Of a DNA stretch of 21,219 bases, positions 1 through 19,880 are shown piece after piece. A program made the translations under genes and the position numbers. Source of the stretch: a virus. Position 1 is the first letter of the stretch, and each line of letters begins with the position of its first letter. Where the stretch lies: IMG/VR virus record IMGVR_UViG_3300009605_004018, positions 1-21,219 of that record; one strand, written 5' to 3'. The notes beneath the pieces were generated by a model. The model worked only from the letters and a program-made list of their open reading frames with translations, searched no databases and was not told the origin of the DNA.

Positions 1-1089
1 GTCTCGCAGCGTATTGAAAATAAGGACCTTCATGCGATGCCCAAGTGGCGAGCGGAGAAGGGGAGTATCGATAAATCGCAAATCACCGACCAACCGGGTG
101 AGATTATCGTATACAACCGAACTGCGACCAGACCGCCGGAGCCATTACCTCCCCCGCCCCTATCTCCTGAGCACAGGTTGATAGAGAAAGAGCAGATTGA
201 CCACATTGAAGCGATTAGTGGCATTAGTGATGTATCCAGGGGTCAGGCCGCTGCTGGCTCTTCTGGCCGGCTTGTCGGTCTTCTTTCTGATTTAGACCAG
301 ACGAAGCTTGGCCCAACGGTGCGGGAGCTCGAAGCGGCTGTTGAGAAGATTGCTCGGCTTATGCTGATGTACTGGCGGGACTTTATGCCCATCGAGCAGA
401 CAATCAAGGTTGCCGGCAAGGATAATATACCGGAGGTCTTCAGCTTCCACGCCAGCCAGGTGCGCTCTACCGATGTGCGTATTGTGGCCAACTCAATGCT
501 ACCAAAGCATCCGAGCTACCGGCGCGAACAAATCATGCAGATGTTTCAGGTGGGTATCCTGGGCGATCCGAACGACCCGCAGACCAAGATGGCAGCTCGC
601 AAGATGATGGAGTTCGGCGGCTCTGAGTTCGAGGGTGATGACTCGAAGGACCGTCAATACGCACGGGAAGAGAACCATGTGCTCATGAATGGCAGGCAGA
701 CCGAGGTGCAGCCATGGGAAGACCATGTGGTGCATATCGATGAGCTGATGAATTTCATGAAGTCAGTGGACTACAGGCTGCTGTCGCCAGACATTCAATC
801 TAATTTTGTGCAGCATCTGGCGATGCATTACTACTATGAATCACAGGCGCAACAGGGCGTACCTTGGTGGCAAGAGTACGTTGGAGCGCCCGGTATGCCC
901 CCAGGGACTCCGCCGGAGGAAGTGGGGGAATTGGTCCAGGTGCCTCAACCGGTAGCTGGGCCTCCTGAAGGTGGAGGTCCACCTCCAGGGCTTATGGGAG
1001 GCGGCACTCCCGAGATGAACCAGGCAATGGGGACTCGCGGGCCAGGTGTTGCAGAGTATGAATATGGTTTTGAAACAGGACCACGGTAA
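1..1089 (+). CDS. Portal protein, C-terminal part (5' end outside the window)
   Basis: The frame is open from the first base, so the true start lies to the left and the 362 visible residues are a C-terminal part; the ATG at 37 is internal. Portal proteins form the dodecameric ring at one capsid vertex through which DNA enters and leaves and to which the tail attaches. The visible stretch SGISDVSRGQAAAG (about residues 69-86), followed by a helix-rich segment ending near MLMYWRDFM, matches the general pattern of P22-like podovirus portals, where GxSDxxRG-type sequence precedes long helices. A proline run (RPPEPLPPPP, about residues 44-53) comes just before it, and the last 65 or so residues are rich in Pro and Gly, probably a disordered tail. 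The gene order portal, scaffold, major capsid protein supports the call. The fold was not tested. Confidence 0.85.
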   Translation, partial: VSQRIENKDLHAMPKWRAEKGSIDKSQITDQPGEIIVYNRTATRPPEPLPPPPLSPEHRLIEKEQIDHIEAISGISDVSRGQAAAGSSGRLVGLLSDLDQTKLGPTVRELEAAVEKIARLMLMYWRDFMPIEQTIKVAGKDNIPEVFSFHASQVRSTDVRIVANSMLPKHPSYRREQIMQMFQVGILGDPNDPQTKMAARKMMEFGGSEFEGDDSKDRQYAREENHVLMNGRQTEVQPWEDHVVHIDELMNFMKSVDYRLLSPDIQSNFVQHLAMHYYYESQAQQGVPWWQEYVGAPGMPPGTPPEEVGELVQVPQPVAGPPEGGGPPPGLMGGGTPEMNQAMGTRGPGVAEYEYGFETGPR

Positions 1090-1885: not shown

Positions 1886-3157
1886 ATGGCTATTCAAAAG
1901 ATCGGAACAGTTGGGGGCGGCAGCAATTTTGATGTTGTTCTCAAGGATTTTTATGAGGGTCCTGTTCGGGAGCACCTCAACAACAAGGTTACACTTCTGC
2001 AATACGTCGAAAAGTCCAAGCGAAGCTGGACAGGTCGGCGGGTTCAGTTCCCGGTGCATTTGACTCGTAACTCGGGCGTTGGCGCTCGTGGTGAAACGTC
2101 TTCGCTTCCGGCTGCTGGATCACAGGGTTTCGTCACGTCAAACATTCTGGCTAAATATATGTACGGCCGGATTACTTTGACGGGCGCTGTTATCGCAGCA
2201 TCACAGGGTTCAGCCGGCGCATTCGCTACGGCAATGAAGACGGAAATCGACGGTATGCGCCGCGATTTGCGTAACGACATGAACCGTCAGTGCTACGGCA
2301 ACTTCCTCAATGACGCGGCGCTAGGTGCTGGTCATGGTGGTAAAACGGGCGTCATGTCGCTGGTTACAACTCCTGTCGGAACTGTTACCACGGTGACTTG
2401 TGATAATCCCGGCAGTCGGTACGTCAAGGTAGGCGATGCGCTTGCTATTGGCACTGTTGCCGAATTGACGAGTGGAACGCCTATTTTTGCAGAAGCATTG
2501 ACTGTCCCAAGTCGAACCACGTTCACGATGGCCAGCGCAACAATTGTTGATAACGACCTTATTGTTCGTGGTGACGCTAATGGTAACTCGTTTAACAACG
2601 AGATTACTGGTATCGATCACATCGTCCAAGACGACAGCGATTTCGACTTGCAGGGTGTTGATGTTGGGGCTAATGCGGATTGGAAGGCGCACAACGAAGG
2701 CAATGCCGGTACGGACCGTCCGTTGTCTCTTGAGTTGATGCAACTTACCATTGATGCAATCGATGAGAAGGGCGGCGACGAGCCGAACCTTATCATAGGC
2801 CATCACTCGCTTCGTCGAGAGTACATCAATCTTTTGACAAGCGATGTGCGCTATGCTCCTGAGCAATTGCGTGGTGGTTTCCAGAAGTTGACGTATGCTG
2901 GCGGTTCGAACCCGATCACAATCGAGTTCGATAAGCACGCAACCTACAACAAGTTATTCTTCCTAAGCACAGGCGACCTGAAGCTCTATGTCCAAAAAGA
3001 CTGGGGCTGGGCGGACCAAGACGGTTCGGTGCTTTCCCGAGTAACTGGCAAAGACCAGTGGGAAGCGTTCATGTGTTGGTATGGAAACTTGGGTTGTGAG
3101 CGACGTAACACGCACGGCGTGTTGAGCGACGTTAGCGTCAGTAACCTTATTTTCTAG
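1886..3157 (+). CDS. Major capsid protein (probably HK97-type fold)
   Basis: The 423-residue product should form the icosahedral shell. It opens with a helix followed by a basic, flexible segment (about 42-90) that fits an extended loop. It then has the helix that typically forms the capsid spine (about 108-142, AFATAMKTEIDGMRRDLRND). A likely beta-barrel insertion follows at about 159-232, with the pattern VKVGDAL...TTFTMASATIVDNDLIVRGD split over its strands; such insertions are common in podovirus coats. The C-terminal third carries the expected mixed helix and strand region, ending in VLSDVSVSNLIF. A strong AGGAGGG Shine-Dalgarno (1872-1878) is 7 bases from the ATG, and a terminator follows directly. 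All 22 arginines use CGN codons and none AGA or AGG, unlike the large downstream genes, consistent with selection for high expression. No N-terminal processed extension is evident. Confidence 0.88.
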   Translation: MAIQKIGTVGGGSNFDVVLKDFYEGPVREHLNNKVTLLQYVEKSKRSWTGRRVQFPVHLTRNSGVGARGETSSLPAAGSQGFVTSNILAKYMYGRITLTGAVIAASQGSAGAFATAMKTEIDGMRRDLRNDMNRQCYGNFLNDAALGAGHGGKTGVMSLVTTPVGTVTTVTCDNPGSRYVKVGDALAIGTVAELTSGTPIFAEALTVPSRTTFTMASATIVDNDLIVRGDANGNSFNNEITGIDHIVQDDSDFDLQGVDVGANADWKAHNEGNAGTDRPLSLELMQLTIDAIDEKGGDEPNLIIGHHSLRREYINLLTSDVRYAPEQLRGGFQKLTYAGGSNPITIEFDKHATYNKLFFLSTGDLKLYVQKDWGWADQDGSVLSRVTGKDQWEAFMCWYGNLGCERRNTHGVLSDVSVSNLIF

Positions 3158-3192: not shown

Positions 3193-3204
3193 TCCCTTCG
3201 GGGG
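3193..3204 (+). promoter_or_regulatory. Second small UUCG hairpin
   Basis: CCC (3194-3196) and GGG (3201-3203) enclose another UUCG loop, with a possible U-G pair below. It follows the terminator by 5 bases and has no U-run. It may only help protect or fold the leader of the next gene. The stem is short, so the call is weak. Confidence 0.3.
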
Positions 3205-3213
3205 GAAAACTGT

Positions 3214-3220
3214 GGAGTGA
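3214..3220 (+). promoter_or_regulatory. Ribosome binding site that sets the start at 3228
   Basis: GGAGTGA lies 7 bases before the ATG at 3228. The in-frame ATG at 3162 would start inside the terminator region and translate the two hairpins, so it is not used here. Confidence 0.75.
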
Positions 3221-3227
3221 TAGACCA

Positions 3228-3848
3228 ATGATCAAAGACAGAAATATCGATTATAAGTACCGCATTGAGACGATTCATGCGTCTGCGATGACCAGCATGG
3301 GTAATCTTGTTGGTACGGAGGATGGTGATGCTGACTTCATCCACCCTGCCGGAAGCAATGCGGATGCCCTGCTGACTACTTTTGGCTCTGCCGGGCTCGT
3401 GGGTTGGAAAATGACAACTGCTGGCCGCCTGGTGCGACATCTTTTGTATTCGCCCACTTACATGGACTGGGAAAATGACATCTTTTTCCGAGTCATTTGG
3501 ACAAGCGGTAGCAGCACAACGGCAGACACCATTGACTGGAAAGTCCTACTTGGGCGGACGGGCTCGGACACAGCGCCAACCGGCGCAGCCGTCCCGCTAG
3601 GCCCCCCTATTGCCCAGGACACGGTAGCTGCGGCGAATGTTGTTCAGTACACCCGCTGGGGCACGCTGATCGCCTCCACGCTGGTGCCTGATGATACAAA
3701 CTTCATCACGGTTGACGTTGAAATGGATGCGTTTGCTGCTGGGCTGAGCGAAGACAAGGGTCTGCTTGGCGTGCAGATTGCGTACATACCTAAGCTGACT
3801 GATGGGCCGCAGGTCAATGACAATGCGTCACCGCAGAACGTGCAGTAA
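3228..3848 (+). CDS. Beta-rich virion protein of unknown role
   Basis: The 206-residue product is dominated by alternating hydrophobic and polar residues typical of beta strands, for example WENDIFFRVIWTS (81-93), TIDWKVLLG (101-109) and ITVDVEMDAF (160-169), closing with LLGVQIAYIP (179-188). This overall pattern resembles small jelly-roll or beta-sandwich proteins that decorate phage heads or form appendages. It is the first gene after the capsid terminator and lies before the neck genes, a position often held by a decoration or head-completion protein. I do not recognise a named family. The start is set by GGAGTGA 7 bases upstream. No signal peptide or membrane segment is seen. Confidence 0.5.
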   Translation: MIKDRNIDYKYRIETIHASAMTSMGNLVGTEDGDADFIHPAGSNADALLTTFGSAGLVGWKMTTAGRLVRHLLYSPTYMDWENDIFFRVIWTSGSSTTADTIDWKVLLGRTGSDTAPTGAAVPLGPPIAQDTVAAANVVQYTRWGTLIASTLVPDDTNFITVDVEMDAFAAGLSEDKGLLGVQIAYIPKLTDGPQVNDNASPQNVQ

Positions 3849-5056: not shown

Positions 5057-6973
5057 GTGGCTACAAAACTGTTCACCTACCCTGGCCCATACCAGGGGAT
5101 TGAAGAGCGAGAGAACTATCAAACGGAGCGCCACGCTTCAATCTCTGTGAATGTGGACTATGCCAGGGGCTATATTGAGCCGCGCCTTGGCTTTACCCAT
5201 CTGGCCAATACCGGGTTAGATACAGGTAAGATCCACGTCTGTGAGCCACGTAACCTTCCTCCGCGCATCCTAATGATGGGTAAAAAGAGTGGGAAGGTGC
5301 AGTTTCAGACGGCAGATCTAGATGGCAATCTGACCACCATGCAGGATGTCTCTACCGATTTGGGTGAGCCGTTCGACCCAAGTGAAGATCCAACTGAATT
5401 TGAGTGCTCGTTCATCGACTGCACTCTGCCCACCTTTGATGAGAATGGGAACGTCCAGGACACCCACTTCATCACCGTGGTGAGTACGAAGTACACAACC
5501 TACGTTTATGACGCAGTGCGTGACAGCGCAAACCTTCGTGCGGTGGATATGACCCAGGATGTGGACCAACTCGGGAAGCTCAACGTCTCCTACTGGGACG
5601 GGGCGCCGAGAGGGACTATCGCTGTCAGGCATAACTCTCTTTATTTCTACGCCGGGTTCAGGCTGTACGATAAAGTTGACTTTACAGACACCCTGGAAGA
5701 AAAACAAAACCTTGTGCCGAAGTGGCGCCTCGATGAGGCTCGGTCAATCTTTACGTTGGACCCGGCGCTTGTGATGCATTCGGACCTCTGGAAGTTTGCA
5801 GACATCAAGGCCGATAACATGTTCTTCGTTGACGAACGAGAGCGGATCACTGGGCTGGTGAGCTTCAAGGGGATGTTGGTCGCATTTACAGACCGCGCAA
5901 TCTACAATCTCCACGGCCAGTCGGCGGACACGCGAACTATATCTAAAGCAGTTGATGGAGTGGGATGTGTTGCCCCTGACAGCGTGATTGCTGTCGGTGG
6001 GTTGATTTACTTCCTCTCATACGATGGCGTCTACAGCTATGCCGGCCAAGCCACAGAGGGAGCGGTAAAGAAAATATCAAGCGGAGTGGACTCGATGTTT
6101 ACCCACCGCGCCGCAGAGACACACCTCCCCTTTGAGGTTAAGACAAATCTTAGGGCACTGGGATACCCCTTTTATGTAGACAGGAACCTTCTTCGTCATG
6201 CCAAGGCGCTTCACATCAAGAGCCGGCAGCAGATTTGGTGGTCTTTGCCGGTAGGCACAGGGGCCATCGCTTCCAGTGATTTTAGCACCACACTGGTGTG
6301 GGACTACAGAAACCAGGCATGGACCGTGTTCACCGGTGAATACGGAGGTGGCGCGTTTAATCATAAGTTCTTCTCTGGCGACACAATTACAGTTGGCGCA
6401 GAAGAGCGGGTTTATACGCTCTCTTCGACAGGGAAGCTCTACCGATACGGGATGGAGCTCAGGGACTACAATGGCACGAACTATAAGTCGCCGGAGATGG
6501 TTTGGCAGTCCAGCCGGATGTTTAGAACCAGCGACAGTGTTAGTACATATAGGCCGCTGCGATTCAAAATCCTAACCAGAGGGAAGACGCCAACGGCAAG
6601 TTCTAATAGGCCGCGCTGGTTCATGGAAGGCGAGGAGCAGGCGACAGACTCCAAAATGATTGAGGGAGCGTCAACTGTTCGGCGGGTGCTTACTGCCGAC
6701 AGGCAGGCGACCAGTGGCGACTTTGATTTCCACCCAAACGAGGACTCTAACAACTTCTACAACAGCTCGGGCGGCGGCGTGTACGGTGAGGATGACACTG
6801 ACGCCGTGGCTGACTATGAGGGCTCCTCATGGATGACATTCAAGGCGGAGCCGGGTGCGGTGAAGAGTCGGAGTTTCCGGGTTGGCGTTTTAGATCCAGC
6901 AAAGACAACACTCGGGCCATACCTAGTCATAAGGGACTATTCCGTTGAGACCGATGCGGGAGATTTCCGTTGA
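5057..6973 (+). CDS. Tail nozzle / tail tubular protein (beta-propeller-like)
   Basis: The 638-residue, beta-rich product resembles podovirus nozzle or stabilisation proteins (P22 gp10, T7 gp12 and SU10 nozzle type), which form the conduit below the adaptor and carry the tail fibres. The characteristic part is FKGMLVAFTDRAIYNLHG (270-287), then GVGCVAPDSVIAVGGLIYFL (301-320), then SYDGVYSYAG. This is the usual 'G.. AP.SV... G..IYFLS.DGVY' blade pattern in which an early strand pair is followed by a glycine, a disc-like repeat and a 'D-G-V/I-Y' turn. Further Trp and Tyr-rich blades follow (around 395-425 and 450-480). Near the N-terminus, YARGYIEPRLGF (35-46) matches the 'G.l..R.G' opening common in this family. 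Translation starts at GTG with AGGAGG 6 bases upstream. The gene overlaps the next by four bases. Confidence 0.75.
   Translation: MATKLFTYPGPYQGIEERENYQTERHASISVNVDYARGYIEPRLGFTHLANTGLDTGKIHVCEPRNLPPRILMMGKKSGKVQFQTADLDGNLTTMQDVSTDLGEPFDPSEDPTEFECSFIDCTLPTFDENGNVQDTHFITVVSTKYTTYVYDAVRDSANLRAVDMTQDVDQLGKLNVSYWDGAPRGTIAVRHNSLYFYAGFRLYDKVDFTDTLEEKQNLVPKWRLDEARSIFTLDPALVMHSDLWKFADIKADNMFFVDERERITGLVSFKGMLVAFTDRAIYNLHGQSADTRTISKAVDGVGCVAPDSVIAVGGLIYFLSYDGVYSYAGQATEGAVKKISSGVDSMFTHRAAETHLPFEVKTNLRALGYPFYVDRNLLRHAKALHIKSRQQIWWSLPVGTGAIASSDFSTTLVWDYRNQAWTVFTGEYGGGAFNHKFFSGDTITVGAEERVYTLSSTGKLYRYGMELRDYNGTNYKSPEMVWQSSRMFRTSDSVSTYRPLRFKILTRGKTPTASSNRPRWFMEGEEQATDSKMIEGASTVRRVLTADRQATSGDFDFHPNEDSNNFYNSSGGGVYGEDDTDAVADYEGSSWMTFKAEPGAVKSRSFRVGVLDPAKTTLGPYLVIRDYSVETDAGDFR
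6958..6962 (+). promoter_or_regulatory. Ribosome binding site for a TTG start
   Basis: GGGAG lies 7 bases before the TTG at 6970, whose last two bases and the next one form the stop codon of the nozzle gene (TTGA). This supports the unusual TTG start. Confidence 0.65.
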
Positions 6974-7716
6974 GCTACTTTAGAACCCACAGCCAGAAGA
7001 TGCCCGTCGACCTCTCGGGCCAGGATGAGCGGTTCAGGGGGGTTATGGCGCGTGTTGAGCAGATTGCACAACGCCAACTCTACAGCGGTCCGATTATAAC
7101 GCCGAAGACCACCATAGCTGAGGCTGTGGCGGGGCTCGGGAAGGAAGGCGGCAGGCTGCTGCTCTCAGAGGGGATCTGGAATTTTACAAACACCCTCGAC
7201 ATAACGCAGGCGAATGTGCAGCTCATCTCCACATCGCCAGGTAATACGGTCTTCAAGAAGAAATCCACAAGCGGACGACCTGCCATTTTACTGTCAGGCC
7301 AGGAGTGTGTCCTAGAGGGGATCCGCTTCAGTGATGGGTCTACGACGGCTGATGATAAAACAGTTGACGTGAGCGGGGATTTGTGCGTCGTGCGGAACTG
7401 CGTGTTCGCAGATGTAAACATCGGGGTGTATGCCAGTGGCATTGATTACCTGACGATAGAGAACTGTCACTTTCTAGACTCCAATCAGGCGGGCATCTAT
7501 ATCACTGGCACATCGAAGATGGGGGCTTACCGGGGCAACATGTTCAAGGTGTTTCCGGGCGGTGGATATGGTATCTATTTGGACGATAATGTGTCCGACT
7601 CTATGATTGTGGGTAATGTGGCAGATACCTCGATTACAAAGGCATATTCCTATAAGCCGACTGCGGCGAATATGGCTGTGACGGCAAACGTTGGACAGGT
7701 AGACGGGAGCAGATAG
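6970..7716 (+). CDS. Short beta-helix protein, probably a tailspike-like appendage
   Basis: The 248-residue product has a helical N-terminal part (17-38), the phrase TIAEAVAGLGKEGGRLLLSEG (48-68, the usual start of a phage pectate-lyase-like fold: an index helix, then a first coil), and then coils of a right-handed parallel beta-helix at about 70-222. Repeating short strands such as CVLEGIRFSD, LCVVRNCVFAD, YLTIENCHFLD and GIYITGTSKM, separated by about 20-25 residues with frequent N, G and D at turns, show this. Phage proteins of this fold often bind or cut surface polysaccharide. No catalytic pair can be assigned here, and the protein is much shorter than usual tailspikes, which have a receptor-binding C-terminal domain. 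It overlaps the nozzle gene and the next gene. It could alternatively be a plug or adaptor for a separate fibre. Confidence 0.7.
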   Translation: MSYFRTHSQKMPVDLSGQDERFRGVMARVEQIAQRQLYSGPIITPKTTIAEAVAGLGKEGGRLLLSEGIWNFTNTLDITQANVQLISTSPGNTVFKKKSTSGRPAILLSGQECVLEGIRFSDGSTTADDKTVDVSGDLCVVRNCVFADVNIGVYASGIDYLTIENCHFLDSNQAGIYITGTSKMGAYRGNMFKVFPGGGYGIYLDDNVSDSMIVGNVADTSITKAYSYKPTAANMAVTANVGQVDGSR

Positions 7717-8225: not shown

Positions 8226-9839
8226 ATGCCTTACTTAGACAAGAAACGATACAAGAATCCAACTATCCCGAAGGGGCAGGCTACGTTGGGGGCGAGCGTA
8301 AAGCCGCCGTCATCGTCTTATTCTCAGGCGGCCCAGCCTCCTGGCGCTCCTATGCGCGTGGCAGGCTCTGCTCTGAGGGATGCGGCAATGGCCAGGGCGA
8401 AAGCGCCGCGAACAGGAGCTCCGCCTGTACCGCAGACACCGCCCAGAACCATGGGTGCGATCCAACAGCCGCCAATGAAGACAGCACTGGGAGCAAGCGG
8501 GGCAGGCCAGCCGAGGCAACAGATGGCCAGCCAGGCAGCGACAAGAATGCTGCAACCCACTGCGCCAGCTATTCCCCCGACCCAGCCCAGAGGGCCTGCA
8601 GTGCCATTACCAGCGGCCCCGCCGCCGCCAAGGGGCGAGCAGGTGTATCAGCCGTTAGGGATGGGTAGTGGGGCGCCGGGTGCTACGCCTGCCCCAACGG
8701 GGGTAGATTATGGCCCGCCAGATCCGGGTGTGATGGGCATGCCTCAGCAGGCGCCTGGGGCAGCCGACCTGCAGCTTGAGAAGCCTCCGGTTACGACTGA
8801 GGAAAAGCTCGCCGGTGTCACTTCCCCAGAGTTCTATCAGAAATGGGCGCAGCCTGGTCAGTATTACGATCCAAAGACGGGGACATATAAAGAACTAATC
8901 CCCGGCGGTGGAGAGGTTGCATCTCAGGACATCCAGGCCGAGGCTCTGGCCATGCTTGAGAAACGTGGCCATGAGGGCTACGGGATGAGCGAGGAAGAGC
9001 TCCAGCAAGCGAAAGATGTCATCACCTCCCAGATGTATGACCAATTCACCCAGATTGCCGAAGAGATGGCCTGGAGTGGACGTGCGGGAGCGGGTGGACT
9101 TCTAGCCAGGGGGTTCGGGCGAGCGGGAGCGGGAGCGGCTCAAGAGCTGAAGAAACTCTTCGTTGAGAATGCCAAGATAGCCGTCCAGGAGAAGATTGCC
9201 TATATTGACCGGATGCTTCAGATGTACGGCGCCAAGCTCAACGCTGAGACTGTCATGGCGCTGCAAGATAAGAGGGCAGAGCTTGAGAAAGAGATGTTCG
9301 CCATGGAAGAGGGGGTCGGAAGTAAGACCGAGGGCTTTGCTATGCGGCAAGATGTGGCGTACCAGGCTGGCGGTGAGGGCTGGGGTGGAAAGTCGGCCCA
9401 GGCTATTGAACACATCATGGACAATTCTGAAATGACCTACGATGAAGCCGCCCAGTACTTCAGAAAAGGTAAAGACGGCAAGATGGAGTACGACTTTACA
9501 GGTCCTCCGCCGCCCATGGCGCCTCCAACTTGGGAGCACGGTGATGATGTGTGGGAGATGATGCCTGAATGGAAGAAGGCAATGTGGTGGCACAGGTACT
9601 CGAAATTCGGGGACGCTTGGGATCCGCATGCGGGTGGCGCAGCAAAGAAGGATGACGAAGGCGGGGTTTTCTGGAGTTTCTGGGACGCATGGAAGGATAA
9701 GTTGAGCGGGGAAGACCGGAAAGAGCTGGATGACATGTACAAATACCACATGGAGCCGGGTGGCACCGGCCAACACTATAAGTATGCAGGCGGTAAGGAT
9801 TACGTGAAGTACCCTGTGACCGGAAAACCACCATATTAG
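8226..9839 (+). CDS. Putative internal virion (ejection) protein, 537 residues
   Basis: Residues 1-190 are very rich in Pro, Ala, Gly and Gln and are probably disordered (for example PAIPPTQPRGPAVPLPAAPPPP, 114-135, in part). Residues 190-420 are mainly helical, with a Gly and Ala-rich link containing RAGAG twice (286-290 and 299-303) and a long charged helix at 305-362. Residues 436-489 hold nine tryptophans, an unusual density. Small ejection proteins of podoviruses are helical, often carry a Gly-rich link, and are released into the cell envelope with the DNA. Position behind the tail genes and before two larger helical proteins supports this role. CGGAGT lies 7 bases before the ATG. No enzyme motif is seen. 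Alternative: an assembly cofactor of the giant protein downstream. Confidence 0.5.
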   Translation: MPYLDKKRYKNPTIPKGQATLGASVKPPSSSYSQAAQPPGAPMRVAGSALRDAAMARAKAPRTGAPPVPQTPPRTMGAIQQPPMKTALGASGAGQPRQQMASQAATRMLQPTAPAIPPTQPRGPAVPLPAAPPPPRGEQVYQPLGMGSGAPGATPAPTGVDYGPPDPGVMGMPQQAPGAADLQLEKPPVTTEEKLAGVTSPEFYQKWAQPGQYYDPKTGTYKELIPGGGEVASQDIQAEALAMLEKRGHEGYGMSEEELQQAKDVITSQMYDQFTQIAEEMAWSGRAGAGGLLARGFGRAGAGAAQELKKLFVENAKIAVQEKIAYIDRMLQMYGAKLNAETVMALQDKRAELEKEMFAMEEGVGSKTEGFAMRQDVAYQAGGEGWGGKSAQAIEHIMDNSEMTYDEAAQYFRKGKDGKMEYDFTGPPPPMAPPTWEHGDDVWEMMPEWKKAMWWHRYSKFGDAWDPHAGGAAKKDDEGGVFWSFWDAWKDKLSGEDRKELDDMYKYHMEPGGTGQHYKYAGGKDYVKYPVTGKPPY

Positions 9840-9848: not shown

Positions 9849-12182
9849 ATGCCTTACAGACCACCCACACACATAGGCCAGGGCTGGTACGGCCAGGCTC
9901 GCCAAATGGCAGCGCAAAGAATGCAGCAGGAGGCGGCGAATGCTCTCGCGCAAGAGCAGCTCTCCTGGAACAAAATGAGGACCTTTACAGATCCACTTTT
10001 GCAGTTTGGCTCACAAGTGGCACTAAAGTTTATCCCCCAGGTGGCGCCAGAAGAGTCAATGGCAGTCGCCACTGAGCGAGCCTACAAAGCGGGGGAGCGA
10101 GGTGTTGGCGTTGGGGAGGCTATCGGTCAGCAGCCCGCAGTGCCGTCCGAGGTGGAAGACTTCAACAGGGCGCGGCAGCGTTTTGAGCAAATGCGGCAAG
10201 ATGTTATCCAGGATACGAAAGCCGCCCCAGGCCCAGGACCAATACCTACGCAAGTTGCTGGGGGACCAACGGCCCCGCCTGCGGGTGCGCCCGTGGGAGG
10301 CCCAACTGCACCACCACCGCCCGCCCCTCCGGTGCGAAAGCCAACGCTACGCGGACTGCAAGAGAGGATCAAGGGCGCGCCCGTGGGCGCTCCGGTGAAA
10401 CCGCCGCCTGGCTGGGGGACACAGCCTGAGCACTATAAAGACTTGAGCCCGAGAAAGCGGCTACTGCTGGAACAGTGGAAGTCTGGTCAGGCAGCGGCGG
10501 GGCGCCAGCGAGAGAAGGAGCAACTCCAGGCTGCCGCCGCCAAGAGCACGTTGAGGCGGGGTGTCGCGGCACTTGTTAAGGACTGGGACCATACGGCTAC
10601 ACACGCCAACGGGAAACCCATCAGGGACTATTCTCGGGCCAATGTTAAGGCAATGCGATCTTATGCTGACGACTTGGTAAGCGGGCTGGTGTCCGAGGCG
10701 GAACTCAAGGGTCTCTTGGTAACCCCGGCTCAAAAGGCGAGCTATAAGGCAACCGGGGACTTTGCATACCGGAGATCTCTAACCAAGCAAGAGATGAAGG
10801 TGCATGAGGATCTGTGGGTCAACTACTACTACATCATGGAGAGGCAGGCCACAGAACGCGGAAAGGCGACTATCAAGGCAGCGCGGATCTCTGCGGCGGT
10901 CAGGAACAGGGCAAAGAAGTATGGGCTTAAAGGGATTAACGCTGGGCAGTGGGCTAACGGCGTAGATAGGGCGGCTACGAAGCACGGGTTCAACCAGGCT
11001 GATCAGAAATATAAGGTGATTAGTTCGATTATACACATGGAGACAAGGGATGCTAACGCAAGGGTAAATGCCCTGAAGAAAGATTCGGTGTATGGCCCAA
11101 TCATCGAGGATGCCCTGAAGTTCTCTCGAATGAAACAGCGCCCGGTGAAGCCTGTATTACTCGGACCGGAAGGGACGGGGATGCGAAACCTTCAGGGGTA
11201 TTACAAGAATAAAAGCCTTCCGCCGGGGGACGTGGCGCTGCTAAATGAACTTGCGGGGCTGCCCAAAACTCAGGCGATGAACAAAGTCCAGAAAAGCCCC
11301 TACAAAGAGGCCTATGCGGGCTACAAGCTGTTTAGGCCAGCGCCAACGCCCATAGCGGGCACGGTGGCATCCGGACCGAAGGGTGCCGGATTGCCGAATC
11401 TGCAGGCATACAAAAGCTCTCCGCAATACAACCCCAAGGACGGCCCTCTGCTTGATGAACTGGCCAGGCTGCCTAAGAAGAAAGCCAAAGCCGCTTCGAG
11501 CAAGAGGAAGTATCGTGCGGCATACCGTCGATACCGAAACTTCAAGCCGGCAACGCCTGCAAGGAGCTTTGCTAGGGTGAAGGTCGACTACGACAACATT
11601 AAGAAGAAACTGGGGTTCTACAGCAAAGGCCAGGATTATACCGACAAACTCGAAAAGCACGCCAAGGCGATGATTAAGGCAGGCAGAATTGAACTGACTA
11701 TAGGGGGCAAGAAGGTAATTGGCAGTAAGCTGAGGGGCGGTGGTTTGACCGGATGGAGGTGGTCCACCGATGGGAGCTTTGACAAGCATAAGTTACCGAA
11801 GGAGATCAAAGATCTCAAGGGCGCGGGCTACACGCCGAATGAGGCATGGCTACAGAAGCAGCCTGGCATTGGGAAGCGATTTGAGAGGAAAAACATAAAG
11901 GGGCGGGCCGCGCTTATCAAACGCATCGACTCCAGATTTAAGAAGTATATGAATTGGACCCAGCAGCAGTTCGATCAGCATTTCGGGGTAGAGGGCAGAA
12001 AGGTCTACCAGTGGATACAGGAACTTAAGGGAGTGATGGGCACCCAATGGGGCAAGGCAGGCACACAGGAGGCTCCAAAGGGTCGATTGGCTCGGGCAGC
12101 GAGTCTGATTCGACAGCAGGGCTGGCCGGCCTCTAAGAAGCGGCGCGCACTTTTGGCTTATGCGGACAAGCTGAGGACATAG
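9849..12182 (+). CDS. Putative internal virion (ejection) protein with duplicated domain, 777 residues
   Basis: The N-terminal 110 residues are helical with a Gln and Met-rich helix (19-42). Residues 126-200 are rich in Pro, Gly and Ala (GPTAPP appears twice). The rest is helical and strongly basic, with many K and R up to the end. Residues 439-568 contain two adjacent 70-residue-period copies of one domain (see the repeat entry). Basic, helical and long proteins of this kind behind the nozzle gene are usual for podovirus ejection proteins that line the internal core and may contact DNA. A perfect AGGAGG lies 5 bases before the ATG, the joint strongest site here with that of the capsid gene, suggesting high copy number. 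No lytic transglycosylase or protease signature is visible. The stop codon directly abuts the start of the giant gene. Confidence 0.5.
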   Translation: MPYRPPTHIGQGWYGQARQMAAQRMQQEAANALAQEQLSWNKMRTFTDPLLQFGSQVALKFIPQVAPEESMAVATERAYKAGERGVGVGEAIGQQPAVPSEVEDFNRARQRFEQMRQDVIQDTKAAPGPGPIPTQVAGGPTAPPAGAPVGGPTAPPPPAPPVRKPTLRGLQERIKGAPVGAPVKPPPGWGTQPEHYKDLSPRKRLLLEQWKSGQAAAGRQREKEQLQAAAAKSTLRRGVAALVKDWDHTATHANGKPIRDYSRANVKAMRSYADDLVSGLVSEAELKGLLVTPAQKASYKATGDFAYRRSLTKQEMKVHEDLWVNYYYIMERQATERGKATIKAARISAAVRNRAKKYGLKGINAGQWANGVDRAATKHGFNQADQKYKVISSIIHMETRDANARVNALKKDSVYGPIIEDALKFSRMKQRPVKPVLLGPEGTGMRNLQGYYKNKSLPPGDVALLNELAGLPKTQAMNKVQKSPYKEAYAGYKLFRPAPTPIAGTVASGPKGAGLPNLQAYKSSPQYNPKDGPLLDELARLPKKKAKAASSKRKYRAAYRRYRNFKPATPARSFARVKVDYDNIKKKLGFYSKGQDYTDKLEKHAKAMIKAGRIELTIGGKKVIGSKLRGGGLTGWRWSTDGSFDKHKLPKEIKDLKGAGYTPNEAWLQKQPGIGKRFERKNIKGRAALIKRIDSRFKKYMNWTQQQFDQHFGVEGRKVYQWIQELKGVMGTQWGKAGTQEAPKGRLARAASLIRQQGWPASKKRRALLAYADKLRT
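11163..11552 (+). repeat. Tandem protein-level duplication, 70-residue period
   Basis: Copy 1 covers residues 439-508 (11163-11372) and copy 2 begins at residue 509 (11373). Over the first 60 positions they align without gaps with 27 identical residues by hand count. The shared frame is G-P-x-G-x-G-x-x-N-L-Q-x-Y, later P-x-D, LL-x-EL-A-x-LP-K, and at the end K-x-x-Y-x-x-A-Y-x-x-Y-x-x-F-x-P-A. The DNA has diverged, so the duplication is old. Spaced Tyr residues and the final F-x-P suggest a small helical module. Confidence 0.9.
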
Positions 12183-15100
12183 ATGCCGGGAACAGATCCG
12201 TTTGGTGTTGATCTAAATAGCCACCTCAATAGCTTTGAGGATGGCACTCAGCCTGCAGTTACGCAGTCGCTGGCCCCCATTGCCCCTGCGCTGGTAGAGC
12301 CCGTTTCCTATCCCACGGTGGAGCCCGTTCAGCCCATCGGTGCGCCGCCAATGGCCGAACAAGACTTCCCCTATCCGCCAGCACAAGAAGAGCAGCAGTG
12401 GCAGCAGAGCATCCCTCCCCCCGAACCAATTGAGGGCTATTCGCCGCGCTTTGTCAGCCAACCCTTTCTGGATGAGGCCGGGAGTGTTGCGGGGGCTTAT
12501 GTAATAGACGGGGCGCCAGATACGGCCAGCGGGACTCCCGCTGTACATGAAGCCTATGTGTCGTCAGGGGTTGATTCGGCTACCGGAGAGCAGACGTTCT
12601 CGCAGGTTTACCCTTTTGAGGGTCGGGATAAGGGTGATGTCGTAGAGCGACTTAGCCCGGCCCTGTGGAACCCGAACGGCTCCACAAGGCAGAAGTTCCC
12701 GGAGGTGGCCATTGACTACCTGTGGAAGGGCTGGGGAGCGAATCATCCGTTCACAATCCAAGCCATCCAGGCCATGGGCGGGGTTGTTGCCTGGTCCCAG
12801 GGAAGGAGGGCTCCGCTGGCGCCTGCGGTGGGCATGTGGGAGTGGACGGCTCAGATGCAGGCGGCGGACACATCGTTCTGGACGCCGAAGCCTGAAAAAG
12901 TAACTTTCGGCAACCGGCTATATCCAACCCCGGACTTTACCACCCCAGGTAGGATGGCGTTCAACCCCCTTGGCGGTAGGCCAGGCGGCGAGGTGGTGCT
13001 GGACTTCCTGAAGGGTCTCTACGAGAGCGGGTCGTATGAGTCTTCGCCTTATATTCTTCTGCCCTACCTAAGTGGAGGCATGCACACCACAATGGCCGGG
13101 TATGAGTTCACTCAGGAGAAGTTCCAGGGGGAGCACGAAGAGCTTGAGCGCGGCGGCGTGGCTGAGGCGGTGGATTATGCCATATCCATATTCGATGACC
13201 TCTATGGGAAAGACACGTCATTCCAGAGCTACAGAACTGACGGGGATTCGGTGCTTTCGGAGCTGAACCTTCACATCAGGGCCAAGCATGCCTGGGAGCG
13301 GTTCTATCGGGAAGGTGGGGGTGAGCAGCCTGTCGATGTCGATATGATAAGTAAAGACCCGCGCCTTCAGCGTGCGGCTGTGGTTCGGGTTGTCTCGCAG
13401 GGTCCAGGTGGCGCACAGGCAGAGAATGCTGCAGCAAAGCTCTTCGAGGCAGATCTTTCCCCCCGAGCCCGACTGATTTTAGAGCTCGCAAAGAGCCAGG
13501 GGCAGTATCCGGCAGCTCGCAAGAAGCTGTTTGACACAGTGGGCGCGCAGGTCGATCACCTAGTAAAAAGCCTTGGTGAAATCTTGCGTTCAGATAGTCG
13601 AGCGGTGAATAAGCTTTACGGTAAGGACATCAGGCTCATCCTGGATATGAGGAAGATGCTCGACCCCACGCGGTCAAAGTACTACAAGGGGGTAGACGGC
13701 GATCATGCGGAATCTGGCGGGGTTGTCGCAATCATCCACCAGTTGAACCGGATCAAGAAAACCCTGCGAACAGGGCAGCTTCAGCTTGGGCTGAAAGAAG
13801 ACATCAAGCACCCCGGCTTCTGGAAAGTCGATGCGCTGCTAACCCGCTGGCCAATCGCCAATTACAGCAGGAAGGAATGGGGATTGATATATAAAGGCGT
13901 TCCAGAGGTAAACCGCCACGGGCTTTACTTGGGACGAGCCGCCAAGCCGGGGTTCGGGGGCGAACACCAGTTTGGGTTCCCCCCTATTTATGTTGAGCCT
14001 GGCACCCCTGCGATGAAGAACCCGGGGGAGCGGGCGGCAAACCTCCTGAGCCTCGTTGATCCGCCGATAGGTACAAATGCCTGGGCAAAGAAGACCGGGT
14101 ATCTAAAGTCAAAGCGGCCGGGACCATACAAAGAGTTCAAGAGAGCGAAGAAGGCGTGGATGCCGGAAATCCAGGAGGCGGCTGGCTGGGAGCCTGGCAC
14201 TGGCGATGCTCAATACATGTCTCATGTGATGTATGGTTATTCACTCGACCTCAACGGGCTATTCCCATACCGGAAGCCGAGGAGCGCCGACCATAGCTCA
14301 ATAAGCATTGGCGAGCGACTTTCACCGAATCCCATAGTCCACAAGGGGCTTGCATCCGCATGGCGCACCGTTATCTCACCAGAGGAGCAGAAAGCAATAT
14401 TGCTACAGGCCAAAGACTCGAAGATCCCGCCGCATGTCTTGGCCGGGTGGCCTCTTTGGCACGGTCAAGATGCGAAAGCCATGGCAGTCAGGCGCACGCG
14501 CATTTTAGTGGACCCCGATGGTAAGCCCTTGCTGAACGACAAGGGGAAAAAGATAGAGCTGTCCATAGAGGAGTATGATCGCCGCTATCCCGACTATTCT
14601 GCCGTCCACGGTGTGGATAAAGAGACCGGCAAGCCCACGGTGGCTCGGGAATACAAGGACCGGCCGCCCTATAAAGAGGTAGAGCACCGGCGGGGCATGC
14701 ACAGGCACATGATCACAGGAGACTGGGTTCCGATGCCTGACAGCGACGAAGTCGATCGTTTCATGGGTAGCTCGCTCATGCTCCCGGTGGGTGTCGCCAA
14801 AGCACTATACGAAGAGGTTGGGCTGAACTACGTCCTTGGGCAGGGGGGGCAGAGATTCCTTGCTACCGACCCTGGCCCGGATGTTTATCCGGCGGGCCAA
14901 CTGCAGACCGGGACCTGGTTCACATTCGGTAAGAGCATGGTGGAGGTGCCCTGGGGCATTGCGAACGATCTGCGGCGCAAATTCATGTATGGCATGGTTG
15001 ATATGTGGCCGGACTGGGTAGGCGACGGAGTAAAAGAGAGCATCAAACAATTCGTCTGGGACCAGGACTGGACTACGGGGGAAATTTTGCGTGGCCGCAG

Positions 15101-18100
15101 AGACCCCGGCATTGAATACTTTCGATGGGCAACGCATATGTTCGGAGGGGATAAGCCCAGCGACGACTGGATGGAACGTTCCTACGAAACCATCCCAGAG
15201 CAACTGCTCTACCTTGCAGCCCACAGGGTCATAATCCCGCTGGAAGTCGGTCGCCATATGTTGATGATGACTGACCCAGCCTACGGCCCGAACGAGGTTG
15301 CCCAGTCGCTGGCTGATACTGCCAATGTCTTGGTGGCGACAGGCCCGCTTGTGGCCTACGGGGCCGTCCGGGGGCTTATAGGGCAGCCGGAAACCATGCA
15401 AAAGGTTGCCGAGGAAGTGGGTATCCTGCCAACACTCTTTGTTGGATATGGCATGGGCAAGAAGCTGAAGGGGGCAGTCAAAAGTTACGTGGGCGCTGTC
15501 AACAAGGTCCTAGTGTCCGGTGAGCTGCTGGCCGAGGCCATTGCAAACGGCACAGTCCCGGAAGGCTACCAGCCAACTCCGTATGTGCCCCGTGGACAGT
15601 TCTTTAGACCTGGCGGCCGAGCTCCCCTGGAGGTGGCCGATTTGCCCTCCCTGAGAGTGGGAGACCTTAGGCGGATGGGCGAGCCAGATGCCATCGCAGA
15701 AGTTGTCTTTCAGCAAGGCAGCACCAAAGCTGTCCACCGGACGCTTTCTGCGCTGCTAGAGGCTCGACATGTTCTGGTCTCCGAGCTGGCAAACTTTTCC
15801 AGCGGCGTCCCCGATGTCAAGGTAGACACGGCAAACAGGCCATACGTGTTCAACCAGCGCCACGGCGTTCGGATGTACCTCGATCAAATGAAGCCCGTCT
15901 TCCCGAAAGGCAATGAGCCCTTGAGGCTCATGTGGACTGACCCCAAAAGCGGCATCCAATGGACCGTTATGCGAATGAGCAAAGACTCGAACATGTTTGT
16001 CAATTGGTTCGGGAGGGGAGTGGAAGGGTGGAAGAATGCTGAGAACTTCAAGAAGGAGTGGTCTGCTCGGCAAAAACACGTCAACGATGGCATAAAGCGA
16101 CACACCGAGGGTATAGAGCTCCTTCAGCAACGCCTGTTCGGTGAGAAGGGCGACATGGAACTAATACCCAGCCCGCTCTACGGGAAGGGTCGCCGGATCG
16201 CCGCCAAGTTCTATAGCGATTTCTTGCCGCATTTGCTTGGCTCGCTGGCCCTAGGACCGCAAGGTTTACCGCTGATGGCGCCGATTGAGTTCGCATCCCT
16301 CGTCATGCGAAAGTTCACAACCGGCGCTCCGTCTGCTTACAGGGTGAAAATCCCCGGCACCGGCAAGGCGATTACTATCCCCGGCGCCCTCCATGCCTGG
16401 TCAAAGGCAATGTTTCTCTACCGAGACCAAGTCATCCCAGAGGCTCTCTCAAACATACTGTTTGAATCCAACAGGACCACAAACAAGGGGACAGCAGCAT
16501 CCTGGGACGCAGTGCGAGCCCTCCCGGACGCACTCAAGCCGACAGTCTTTGACGCCATGACAATGGAAGCCCAGTCATACTCGTGGAACGTGGTGGTCTT
16601 CGATGGCTGGAGGTCGGGGCTTGAGCAACTCTCCCGCCTGAATGCCGGGGAGCTCGCGAAATACAGAGCGTCTAACCACAGGAATCTTTCCAGTGGGCCA
16701 AAGGAGCTGAAGGCTCGTGTTGAAAGTGACCTGCCCGGACTCATCGCGCAACGCGACGGAGGGCGCATACCGCTGCCCGCATTCTGGCAGCCCTACGTGA
16801 CAGCCTGGGAGGCCAAGAATGGGCCTATGGGCTCGGATAAGAACCTGCGCCGAATCCGGGCGCCAGAGTTCTACAGAGAGTTGTTCTATACCGATTTGCC
16901 CAGCGTTGGTGAAATCAATCAAGCCCTTCAGGCGCTCGGTGAGCAGCTCTACCGCAAGGGGAGCCGGCGGGAGCACTATGAGGGAGAGCGCAAAAAGAAG
17001 TTCAGGCTGACCCCCAAGCAGGAGACTACGGTTCGGGAGACATATCCTCACGTCACCGGCCGCGAGAAAGTTACCTATGACGCAAAAGGCAAGCCGATTA
17101 AGATTGATGTGCCGAAGCCAGATATTGAGGTCATGCCTGCCCTGGACCCGTCTCGCATAAAGACATACAGCGATAGCCTGAGCCCAGGGAAGATAGGGGT
17201 TCGCACATCATCTGAGTACACCGGACCAGTCGTTCCGGTGGTGCATGATGCTGTTTCAGGCTACCGGTATAACCCCCTCCACAAACGCTATGAGGTTGAC
17301 TCAAACTTCCGCACCGTCGCGTCAGAGTTTTCACCCCTTCTGCTGCGACACGTTGAGCAGGTTGTTGACTTCCTCAACCGCGATGTGTCAGCGCGTCCAC
17401 TTGCAGACCGGTTCCAGATGGTCCATGACGGCGTAGTGGCCGAAGGTTTGGCGGACAACCCGGCGAATCTAACCAACTATGCGATGCCCCAGTCCTATGA
17501 CCGGACGGTGCAGTTGAGAAACCGCATTTTAGAACTCACTCGCGACCTGAAGGAGGGCCGGATTGACACGAAGGAATACTTTGCTCTGCTAAGGTCTGAG
17601 CGCAATGGTGCAGCGCAAGATATAGCAGCGCATGCTAAGGCCGCAGGTCAGATGATGCCGAACTGGGACAAGCGGATGGGTATCCCCAAGGAGATTTCAA
17701 AAATAGAGCGCGGCCTTATAACAGACCCGGTGTCGTTTGACCGCATGATGGTGGCGGACCTGGCCTCGCTTGAAAACCTCGTCAACAGACACAAGGCGTT
17801 CCGCCAGATAATGAAACAGTTCCCAGGCGTATGGCGAGAGGCCAGCTTCTTTCCCGATGCCAAATCGGCCAGGGCTGCCGGCTATGAGATCATGCCAGAC
17901 ATGAAATACCCCGGCACTACTATCAATGTGTTCGGCGGGCTGGCCGGGAAGTATGTTCGGGGAGATATACAGCGCATCTGGGTCTGGGAGCACAAGTTCA
18001 ACGAGTACGCCAGAAAGCTTCTACCCAAGACGGTGGTGTGGTGGAAGCGCCTACGCACTGTCTATAACTTGCCAGTTGCCTTCCGTAACTATGTGACCCA

Positions 18101-19880
18101 ATGGCTGTATCACGGGCCGATGTATGGCGTAAATCCAATGACCAAAGAGGGCCAGCACTACCTTGGACTTGCCCGTCAGGCGATGGCAAACCCCCACAGC
18201 CCAATGGGTAAGCTATTGCTTGAGAGCCAAACCCTGAGCGGCGACTTCTCTCGCACCGACCTGATGGTCAACGCGCGGGTCTCCTTCTACGACATCATCT
18301 ACGGGAAGAACTTTAGTGACACTCGGCGCATCTTTACCAACATGCACACCTTCCCCTACCACTTGATGAGCAGGATCAGCAAACGAAACAAAGGGGCGTT
18401 GGCGCTGCATGCTGTCATGTCTGACTTACCTAATGCCATATATGGCTTTAACGATCAGCTCTACCGGGCCGCGAAGTTCTTCAAGTCGTACATGCCGGAT
18501 CACCACAGGGGCGGCAAGACCAGGACCGACATGTTCCAGGCCTCGCTGGACGGGCGAGAGATAAGCCAGAACTATGCTCATGCCCCAATGGCAGTAAACT
18601 TCCTCTCATCTCCTTACCCGAGCAGGCTGTCCACAGCCCACTTCCTATCTCCGGTCGGCGTTGTCACTCCATTTATGCGCTATGGTGTACAGGCCGCTAG
18701 GGGCTTGAAGCGGAATTTAGACAACCCGGTCCAGGCTGTGACGATAGCCGCCATGATGAACACCTGGGACTATCTGACGGCACTGTCTGTTTCCCAGGCC
18801 GGCGTCTCTGAAGATGAGTGGCGGGCAATCAGGAGCAATTCGCCTATGTCTTGGCGCCTGCGGTATATGGCAACGCCATGGACCATCAAGGCCAAGTTTG
18901 GCGCCTCCGGTGCCCCCGAGGATGTTTGGTGGACTGGGGTCAATGTCGGCTGGCTTCAGCCGTTTACCCTCAAGTCGTTCCTTGGGCAGAGAGGTGATGA
19001 AGATGACGTGGGTCTGGCCAGTCTGTTGCTGGAGGCTGCAACAGGGTTTACGTTCGACCCGCAGGACAACTGGATGCCAGGTCAAATAAGCCGAGCGTTG
19101 CAGTGGTTAACTGAGAAGAGCCCCCGGACGAGAAGGGAGCTCTCGAAAAGATATTTTGATGGGGATGAGATTACACTGGGCAGGGTGCTCTTGCACATTG
19201 GGAAAGAGCAGGCTGTGCCGCCGACAATCACAAGGGTGATGGATATCTGGGGCGAGAACATTCCGGGGATGGCGAAGTGGGCAAAGACGGCTGGTATGAC
19301 GCTGGAGCCGCAAGGGATGCAGCGGAGCGCACTTGTAGACGTGCGGCATAACTTCAATAAGATGCACGTCGCCAAAGAGGATGCGGATGATGAAACGGCG
19401 AAGCAATTTGGCCTCCCGAGGCTCCCGGCCTACAGCATAATGGATGAAAAGAGTCACGAGCCTATGTTCGAGGGCAGTCCGCATACATGGGGTGAGGTCG
19501 CTGCCTCTCGAAGGCTCCGGTCACAGCAGCACATCGCAGAGGCCCTCAAGGGATACTACGCTGACATGGAGGGTCTCAGCAATACGATCACCGCTGGTCA
19601 GACCAGAGAGCCTGGCCCTGAGATGATGTACTACATCGATGCGTTTGATAAACTCAAACCACTTGCGGATGCCGGCTGGATAGTCAAGTCTGACGATGCG
19701 ACGGACGCGGAGCCGGGGCTCTACCTCACCTCTGCACGTCTAGCCGTTGGCGGGTTCCTTGCGTACTTGAGGGAATGGGTAGGCAAGGCCGGGTTTGAGG
19801 ATATTTTGCGAGAGATAGATCCCAAATTCCAAACAGAGGAAGTATACTTTGGTGGAAGGATTGAGGTAGAAGAGCCATAA
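12183..19880 (+). CDS. Giant internal virion (ejection) protein, 2565 residues
   Basis: This gene is more than a third of the window. Residues 26-85 are Pro and Glu-rich and likely disordered; the rest is a long mainly helical protein with many Trp and aromatic residues. Hydrophobic stretches at about 1049-1066, 1079-1093 and 1347-1374 could insert in a membrane during ejection. The C-terminal part has a layout I recall from giant phage internal and polyvalent proteins: LPVAFRNYVTQ (1963-1973), then FNDQLYRAAKFF (2089-2100), then VTPFMRYG (2161-2168) and DNPVQA (2180-2185). Such proteins are packed in the head and enter the cell with or before the DNA. No lytic transglycosylase, zinc protease or complete polymerase motif was found. 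The start uses TGAGGA about 6 bases upstream and follows the previous stop without a gap. Enzymatic activity cannot be excluded. Confidence 0.62.
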   Translation: MPGTDPFGVDLNSHLNSFEDGTQPAVTQSLAPIAPALVEPVSYPTVEPVQPIGAPPMAEQDFPYPPAQEEQQWQQSIPPPEPIEGYSPRFVSQPFLDEAGSVAGAYVIDGAPDTASGTPAVHEAYVSSGVDSATGEQTFSQVYPFEGRDKGDVVERLSPALWNPNGSTRQKFPEVAIDYLWKGWGANHPFTIQAIQAMGGVVAWSQGRRAPLAPAVGMWEWTAQMQAADTSFWTPKPEKVTFGNRLYPTPDFTTPGRMAFNPLGGRPGGEVVLDFLKGLYESGSYESSPYILLPYLSGGMHTTMAGYEFTQEKFQGEHEELERGGVAEAVDYAISIFDDLYGKDTSFQSYRTDGDSVLSELNLHIRAKHAWERFYREGGGEQPVDVDMISKDPRLQRAAVVRVVSQGPGGAQAENAAAKLFEADLSPRARLILELAKSQGQYPAARKKLFDTVGAQVDHLVKSLGEILRSDSRAVNKLYGKDIRLILDMRKMLDPTRSKYYKGVDGDHAESGGVVAIIHQLNRIKKTLRTGQLQLGLKEDIKHPGFWKVDALLTRWPIANYSRKEWGLIYKGVPEVNRHGLYLGRAAKPGFGGEHQFGFPPIYVEPGTPAMKNPGERAANLLSLVDPPIGTNAWAKKTGYLKSKRPGPYKEFKRAKKAWMPEIQEAAGWEPGTGDAQYMSHVMYGYSLDLNGLFPYRKPRSADHSSISIGERLSPNPIVHKGLASAWRTVISPEEQKAILLQAKDSKIPPHVLAGWPLWHGQDAKAMAVRRTRILVDPDGKPLLNDKGKKIELSIEEYDRRYPDYSAVHGVDKETGKPTVAREYKDRPPYKEVEHRRGMHRHMITGDWVPMPDSDEVDRFMGSSLMLPVGVAKALYEEVGLNYVLGQGGQRFLATDPGPDVYPAGQLQTGTWFTFGKSMVEVPWGIANDLRRKFMYGMVDMWPDWVGDGVKESIKQFVWDQDWTTGEILRGRRDPGIEYFRWATHMFGGDKPSDDWMERSYETIPEQLLYLAAHRVIIPLEVGRHMLMMTDPAYGPNEVAQSLADTANVLVATGPLVAYGAVRGLIGQPETMQKVAEEVGILPTLFVGYGMGKKLKGAVKSYVGAVNKVLVSGELLAEAIANGTVPEGYQPTPYVPRGQFFRPGGRAPLEVADLPSLRVGDLRRMGEPDAIAEVVFQQGSTKAVHRTLSALLEARHVLVSELANFSSGVPDVKVDTANRPYVFNQRHGVRMYLDQMKPVFPKGNEPLRLMWTDPKSGIQWTVMRMSKDSNMFVNWFGRGVEGWKNAENFKKEWSARQKHVNDGIKRHTEGIELLQQRLFGEKGDMELIPSPLYGKGRRIAAKFYSDFLPHLLGSLALGPQGLPLMAPIEFASLVMRKFTTGAPSAYRVKIPGTGKAITIPGALHAWSKAMFLYRDQVIPEALSNILFESNRTTNKGTAASWDAVRALPDALKPTVFDAMTMEAQSYSWNVVVFDGWRSGLEQLSRLNAGELAKYRASNHRNLSSGPKELKARVESDLPGLIAQRDGGRIPLPAFWQPYVTAWEAKNGPMGSDKNLRRIRAPEFYRELFYTDLPSVGEINQALQALGEQLYRKGSRREHYEGERKKKFRLTPKQETTVRETYPHVTGREKVTYDAKGKPIKIDVPKPDIEVMPALDPSRIKTYSDSLSPGKIGVRTSSEYTGPVVPVVHDAVSGYRYNPLHKRYEVDSNFRTVASEFSPLLLRHVEQVVDFLNRDVSARPLADRFQMVHDGVVAEGLADNPANLTNYAMPQSYDRTVQLRNRILELTRDLKEGRIDTKEYFALLRSERNGAAQDIAAHAKAAGQMMPNWDKRMGIPKEISKIERGLITDPVSFDRMMVADLASLENLVNRHKAFRQIMKQFPGVWREASFFPDAKSARAAGYEIMPDMKYPGTTINVFGGLAGKYVRGDIQRIWVWEHKFNEYARKLLPKTVVWWKRLRTVYNLPVAFRNYVTQWLYHGPMYGVNPMTKEGQHYLGLARQAMANPHSPMGKLLLESQTLSGDFSRTDLMVNARVSFYDIIYGKNFSDTRRIFTNMHTFPYHLMSRISKRNKGALALHAVMSDLPNAIYGFNDQLYRAAKFFKSYMPDHHRGGKTRTDMFQASLDGREISQNYAHAPMAVNFLSSPYPSRLSTAHFLSPVGVVTPFMRYGVQAARGLKRNLDNPVQAVTIAAMMNTWDYLTALSVSQAGVSEDEWRAIRSNSPMSWRLRYMATPWTIKAKFGASGAPEDVWWTGVNVGWLQPFTLKSFLGQRGDEDDVGLASLLLEAATGFTFDPQDNWMPGQISRALQWLTEKSPRTRRELSKRYFDGDEITLGRVLLHIGKEQAVPPTITRVMDIWGENIPGMAKWAKTAGMTLEPQGMQRSALVDVRHNFNKMHVAKEDADDETAKQFGLPRLPAYSIMDEKSHEPMFEGSPHTWGEVAASRRLRSQQHIAEALKGYYADMEGLSNTITAGQTREPGPEMMYYIDAFDKLKPLADAGWIVKSDDATDAEPGLYLTSARLAVGGFLAYLREWVGKAGFEDILREIDPKFQTEEVYFGGRIEVEEP

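Follow-up and report, generated by a model that had tools for sequence, protein, structure and literature searches.

A giant cysteine-free putative ejection protein of a podovirus-like phage and its conserved C-terminal core

The ejection trio of phages T7, P22, N4 and DEV provides a pore in the outer membrane, a tunnel through the periplasm and an inner-membrane or cytoplasmic element (PMC8954989, PMC12633501, PMC10925440). The C-terminal domain (CTD) of the N4-type virion RNA polymerase (vRNAP) has been solved; it damps transcription in vitro, its specific role is given as unknown, and its C2 part has no structural relative (PMC12633501). The absence of cysteine from vRNAP was noted earlier and explained by the passage through the tail and the periplasm (PMC2784036, PMC3715699, PMC3915230); our literature search found cysteine absence stated for vRNAP but no general statement of it for ejection proteins. 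In SU10, gp20-24 are missing after genome release (PMC9509320).

Gene order around the giant frame

The window, i.e. the whole stretch of 21,219 nucleotides analyzed here (IMG/VR record IMGVR_UViG_3300009605_004018), contains the following genes:

1..1089, plus strand: portal, 3' part (Pfam P22_portal, 1.9e-13; PHROG portal, 9.4e-19)
1886..3157, plus strand: major head protein (PHROG 14242, 1.9e-63; Jasmine, Shocker and DS1, about 30%)
5057..6973, plus strand: 638-aa tail hub or stabilization-type protein (PHROG 511, 3.9e-11; PHROG 3287, 6.9e-10)
8226..9839, plus strand: 537-aa protein, first of the trio, no cysteine; outer-pore slot (position of T7 gp14, P22 gp7 and N4 gp52)
9849..12182, plus strand: 777-aa protein, second of the trio, no cysteine; tunnel slot (position of T7 gp15, P22 gp20 and N4 gp51)
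12183..19880, plus strand: giant putative ejection protein P0001, 2565 aa, no cysteine; open frame, slot kept in relatives

The slots of the 537-aa and 777-aa proteins were assigned by position and cysteine count. The preliminary description had recognized a podovirus-like block and, directly behind two large genes, an uninterrupted frame of 7698 bases. Both observations hold: the block has a P22-type portal, a major head protein and a 638-aa protein matching PHROGs labeled 'internal virion protein' and 'virion structural protein', and the two genes preceding the frame are those of the 537-aa and 777-aa proteins. Comparison with the records of T7, P22, N4 and SU10 showed that three consecutive genes follow the tail hub, P0001 being the final one and the longest; the order is the same in the relatives in which the slot is sequenced.

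A longer contig (G001, 30.6 kb, 99.8% identical to the window) carries the complete portal gene (718 aa) and has the order terminase, portal, a 250-aa protein placed where a scaffold would be, major head protein, proteins of connector size, 638-aa hub, a small beta-helix-like protein, and then the proteins of 537, 777 and 2565 aa; downstream come three small genes and then what are probably an amidase and a primase/helicase, these two being read from sequence only. In the window, the 248-aa gene at 6970-7716 resembles on reading a right-handed beta helix with tailspike-like repeats and has no PHROG match. Downstream of the window, a contig of the same phage, 3300008218_000032 (L017/L018), was found on reading to encode proteins of 275 aa (amidase-endolysin-like), 133 aa (having a membrane segment and VGCGT, which resembles a lipobox) and 786 aa (primase/helicase-like).

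The P0001 frame starts with ATG and has 2565 codons and no internal stops; the chance of an open frame this long, given the base composition, is P ~7e-45, and the GC content at codon positions 1, 2 and 3 is 60, 44 and 66%. The frame is open in three contigs of one phage: the G001 copy has 4 differences in 7698 bases, changing one residue, and a partial copy in G002 differs at 3 of 3225 bases, all in third positions. The unusual length of P0001 could be explained by an assembly error or a frameshift fusing at least two genes, but the same frame is open in the three contigs and the giants in the same slot of sister phages have 1851-2588 aa, which makes the chance of such an artefact negligible.

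Relatives with a giant in the same slot were found through the portal and the head protein, which have homologs in Arthrobacter phage Jasmine, Microbacterium phage Shocker and Cellulosimicrobium phage DS1; the head protein also matches spring-water podoviruses. Jasmine has podovirus morphology with a tail of about 10 nm (PMC5513430). In these relatives, too, the structural block has as its final large gene one for a giant of 1106-1803 aa, in many cases located just before the lysis genes. In addition, head-protein and portal alignments brought in contigs from IMG/VR whose genes are arranged in the same way. Their same-slot giants (3300024517_000038, 3300020473_001846, 3300040985_002201 and others) have, where complete, 1851-2588 aa and zero or one cysteine and, like P0001, follow two cysteine-free proteins. 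All that they have in common with P0001 is a C-terminal core (20-25% identity, blastp E down to 4e-11). A search with P0001 of the MCP-relative records gave no match, though their same-slot giants proved homologous by blastp and profile.

Two of these giants have irregular frames. In the G006 giant (L037:2048-9616, plus strand) residues 10-34 are an exact 25-residue copy of its own interior segment, NDPVKMVRWLREPVHEVGQWGRKWM, and the G004 giant, although 97% identical, lacks this copy at the corresponding position; the duplication reflects recombination or an assembly fault. The giant of 3300003690_000089 (L094:960-7641, minus strand) is split over three frames of 1377, 465 and 478 aa, probably by metagenome-assembly frameshifts, and its core lies within the two downstream pieces.

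Absence of cysteine

The trio formed by P0001 and the 537-aa and 777-aa proteins has no cysteine in 3879 residues, whereas the other genes of the window have 22 in 3134 (Fisher P 1.9e-8). Base composition is not the cause, since the other five frames of the P0001 gene contain 76-118 cysteine codons. In 12 phages from the group of the window phage and the actinophage group, the ejection-type sets have 2 cysteines in 37,469 residues versus 301 in 39,905 for their neighbours, though the sequences are mostly unalignable.

Known or synteny-assigned ejection sets behave similarly: cysteine counts are 2/2448 residues in T7, 0/1309 in P22, 0/4294 in N4, 0/2925 in SU10, 1/2282 in P-SSP7 and 5/2574 in the less strict epsilon15, while the other virion genes of these calibration phages together have 166/24,218. 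By protein (L102, L103, L104, L110), cysteine is absent from P22 gp7, gp20 and gp16, N4 gp50, gp51 and gp52, SU10 gp20-24, and T7 gp15 and gp16; T7 gp14 has one. In the phages compared, cysteine does occur in most of the tail hubs, fibres and portals.

That the depletion also occurs in phages of Gram-positive Actinobacteria favours tail passage, and not periplasmic chemistry alone, as its explanation. The Fisher tests take residues as independent, and short proteins may be cysteine-free by chance, so that the marker should be applied only where a gene is long or several genes form a run. Cysteine absence is a correlate of ejection, not a proof of it; across adjacent long genes it is a homology-free marker, which could help to locate ejection genes in podoviruses that lack annotation.

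A conserved core and a variable N-terminal region

According to the preliminary description, P0001 had no recognizable enzyme motif, and our searches agree. Pfam, PHROGs and the PDB gave no matches for the whole protein, and Pfam searches of four 500-aa pieces, such splitting having been suggested at the outset, gave nothing meaningful. A TBLASTN search of 50,697 phage records with the whole protein and its C-terminus was likewise empty. HExxH, Walker A and GxSxG motifs are absent, a transglycosylase motif was not seen, and an N4-type RNA polymerase domain was not detected. Polymerase, protease and muramidase identities were rejected, having neither match nor motif. A PDB profile search gave only acetyltransferase matches at chance level (E 0.2-1.2). 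None of 11 relatives has a match to an enzyme family.

The P0001 protein can be subdivided as follows:

12183..17252, plus strand: N-terminal region, residues 1-1690, variable; relatives detected in near-identical contigs only
15321..15383, plus strand: most hydrophobic 21-residue stretch, residues 1047-1067 (mean hydropathy 1.27)
17856..18881, plus strand: conserved core, residues 1892-2233, common to sister giants, actinophage giants and the vRNAP CTD
18069..18089, plus strand: LPVAFRN (RN motif); Shocker has PGHHIRN and vRNAP CTDs have N at the aligned position
18663..18686, plus strand: VTPFMRYG (PF motif), PFYSW in Shocker and DS1
18720..18737, plus strand: DNPVQA (NP motif), NPI/NPV in sisters and NPVHS in N4 gp50

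The core boundaries were set by iterated HMM search, and the core family has a depth of ten sequences. All four strings of the C-terminal layout that had been noticed beforehand (LPVAFRN, RAAKF, VTPFMRYG and DNPVQA) are located inside the core. P0001 alone matches the profile of the other nine members with P=1.4e-25. Among 2084 ORFs of related contigs, the core HMM matched only same-slot giants, two more distant ones weakly, and the two downstream pieces of the broken giant.

Direct BLAST and phmmer comparison of P0001 with the Jasmine, Shocker and DS1 giants gave nothing significant, and profiles are therefore needed to link them. With the core profile, the giants of Shocker, DS1, Jasmine, ctEqG8, G008 and G009 are matched in their C-terminal region (P=1.6e-9), RN being aligned with RN and PF with PF. 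Applied to annotated ejection proteins of model phages, the core HMM yielded one unexpected match, N4 gp50 3365-3449, with E 7e-5; the set searched numbered 32, reversed decoys among them. A profile built from the C-termini of nine schitovirus vRNAPs matches the core profile over about 220 columns, around N4 3180-3450, with P=2.5e-8 (1.6e-8 without P0001). Taken singly, the core of P0001 fails to match the vRNAP CTD profile (P=0.18), and the link hence rests on the family profile.

Controls were at background level: P was 0.37 for a reversed profile and 0.26-0.62 for eight control proteins (T7 gp15 and gp16, P22 gp16, SU10 gp24, P-SSP7 gp16, N4 gp51, and the N4 N-terminal and RNAP domains). 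Among 200 block-shuffled versions of each target profile, the best P was 0.026 for vRNAP and 0.013 for the actinophage giants, with best scores of 26-27 compared to the real scores of 66 and 79. E-values from small custom sets vary with set size, and it is the profile controls that carry the argument; in single-sequence phmmer a reversed decoy reached E=0.004, and E-values near that level were excluded as evidence. Judged by these profile comparisons, the C-terminal core of P0001 is distantly homologous to the CTD of N4-type vRNAP. The impression that the C-terminal layout recalls giant internal proteins of phages is thus upheld by the profile-profile comparison, while its other part, a link to polyvalent proteins via LPD38, is not, as P0001 has no match to the Pfam LPD38 family; LPD38 was rejected as its identity. 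Related records showed no LPD38 either, in a search in which no positive control gave a signal.

The slot, the absence of cysteine and the C-terminal core, all in common with N4 gp50, could also be explained if P0001 were a diverged vRNAP whose polymerase domain has become unrecognizable. We consider this highly improbable: the N4 RNAP domain matches P0001 with E=2, the level of reversed decoys, P0001 has a single isolated TxxGR-like string, and Pfam RNA_pol, with T7 as positive control, is absent in five related records, though enzymes of the N4 type could escape this model. A tail protein or minor virion protein with a structural role that is retained in the particle, such as a fibre, a tape-measure-like protein or a scaffold, would equally be encoded in the late structural block, and position alone does not prove ejection. 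Such a protein is nevertheless very unlikely here, given that 2565 cysteine-free residues are typical of annotated ejection proteins while hubs, fibres and portals mostly contain cysteine, and that the core is common to the CTD of ejected vRNAPs.

The N-terminal two thirds evolve differently. Comparison of residues 1-1690 with the N-termini of the sister-clade giants by hhalign showed no relation (P 0.086-0.65), yet the portals of these IMG/VR relatives are 61-67% identical to that of the P0001 phage. The 777-aa protein is similarly diverged, with no match to the tunnel-slot proteins of sister phages (P=0.13), and the 537-aa protein is related to their first-slot proteins (P=4.2e-18). With the 1690 residues and the 777-aa protein so diverged, this portion of the ejection set changes at a much higher rate than the head. 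The N-terminal region is lineage-specific, perhaps fitting the host envelope or acting in the host. The earlier suggestion that the residues outside the C-terminal layout could hold novel domains for delivery to the host gains no support from these comparisons, nor do they contradict it.

Long N-terminal regions unrelated between P0001 and the sister clades would be expected if P0001 were a polyvalent effector, in which the N-terminal two thirds comprise unrecognized host-modifying enzyme domains and the core is the delivery part, and phage proteins delivered elsewhere do carry such domains (PMC5512222). This seems rather unlikely, as P0001 has no catalytic motif and no LPD38 match, its relatives lack enzyme families, and the structure model has low confidence only; multiple enzymatic domains in one chain, a trait of polyvalent proteins, were not found in P0001 with Pfam, PHROGs or motifs. 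It is, however, compatible with a role in ejection and does not exclude it. Separately, an 838-aa cysteine-free protein (L109:4488-7004, plus strand) has both the window-family core and the actinophage-type core, with a sub-threshold LPD38 match downstream (E=0.0076). It is an intermediate scoring with both profiles, and a possible bridge to polyvalent proteins.

The AF2 models, one for the core from 8 rows and one for residues 130-900 from a single sequence, are mainly helical, loosely in line with the helical character ascribed earlier to the large proteins of this block, but their pLDDT values of only 43 and 35 are too poor for fold comparison. The hydropathy of residues 1047-1067 falls below the usual transmembrane threshold, and the stretch may tentatively be considered a possible membrane-interacting segment. 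The giants of Jasmine, Shocker, DS1 and ctEqG8 (L011, L012, L015 and L014) have at residues ~150-230 the motif GDVxxDPxTYxxxG, found loosely also in G008 and G009, which may be a membrane-inserting segment.

Proposed role and comparison with known ejection proteins

P0001 very likely is the third, inner-membrane or cytoplasm-side ejection protein of a podovirus, in the slot of gp16 and vRNAP, ejected without a polymerase. The ejection-like character proposed in the preliminary description is supported by the gene order, the cysteine-free trio and the distant homology of the core to the CTD of the ejected N4-type vRNAP; from these we infer packaging, ejection and a channel role. P0001 would be synthesized late, packaged into the capsid and driven out via the portal and the tail alongside the 537-aa (outer pore) and 777-aa (periplasmic tunnel) proteins, with which it would form a transient channel for DNA entry. 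The absence of cysteine may let the long chain cross the tail and the envelope partly unfolded and refold without disulphides. The core probably is a shared module of ejected giants, serving packaging, ejection or the handling of entering DNA; since no polymerase or peptidoglycan-cutting domain was found, a function in delivery or DNA handling is the best interpretation.

The homologous core in polymerase-free giants of the same slot suggests that the basic job of the vRNAP CTD is not transcription control and that damping transcription was not its original role. A bolder reading, to which we give a fairly low chance, is that ejected giants have in the core an engine or a packaging tag of general use, older than the polymerase fusion, and that the 1690 N-terminal residues are new cargo. 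If true, N4-type vRNAP would exemplify a broader scheme, with interchangeable cargo brought into the cell by a conserved C-terminal module. As the core is present in phages of culturable Arthrobacter and Microbacterium, these could provide simple systems for studying domains of the vRNAP CTD type.

Proteins of the gp16 type are said to carry membrane segments, and homology to T7 or P22 gp16 is often absent between phage groups. T7 gp16 and P22 gp16 occupy the same slot as P0001 and have no cysteine, but show no sequence similarity to it (hhalign P 0.56 for both); the hydrophobic stretches of P0001 are weak (1.27). The window trio has the same order as the sets of T7, P22, N4 and DEV, P0001 being third, and P0001 is about twice as long as the largest gp16-like protein tabulated in PMC8954989 (609-1337 aa) and smaller than vRNAP. 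Closer are Shocker gp37, Jasmine gp29 and the DS1 and ctEqG8 giants, which like P0001 lie in the same slot of a cysteine-free set; these giants of 1106-1803 aa come from phages mostly of Actinobacteria, with Gram-positive hosts where known, and differ from P0001 in their N-terminal hydrophobic motif GDVxxDPxTY. Unlike N4-type vRNAP (schitovirus gp50, DEV gp71), P0001 has no detectable RNA polymerase domain, HExxH subdomain (C1) or N4-type N-terminal domain; like it, P0001 is third in the ejection set, is free of cysteine and, by the family profile, shares the C-terminal core.
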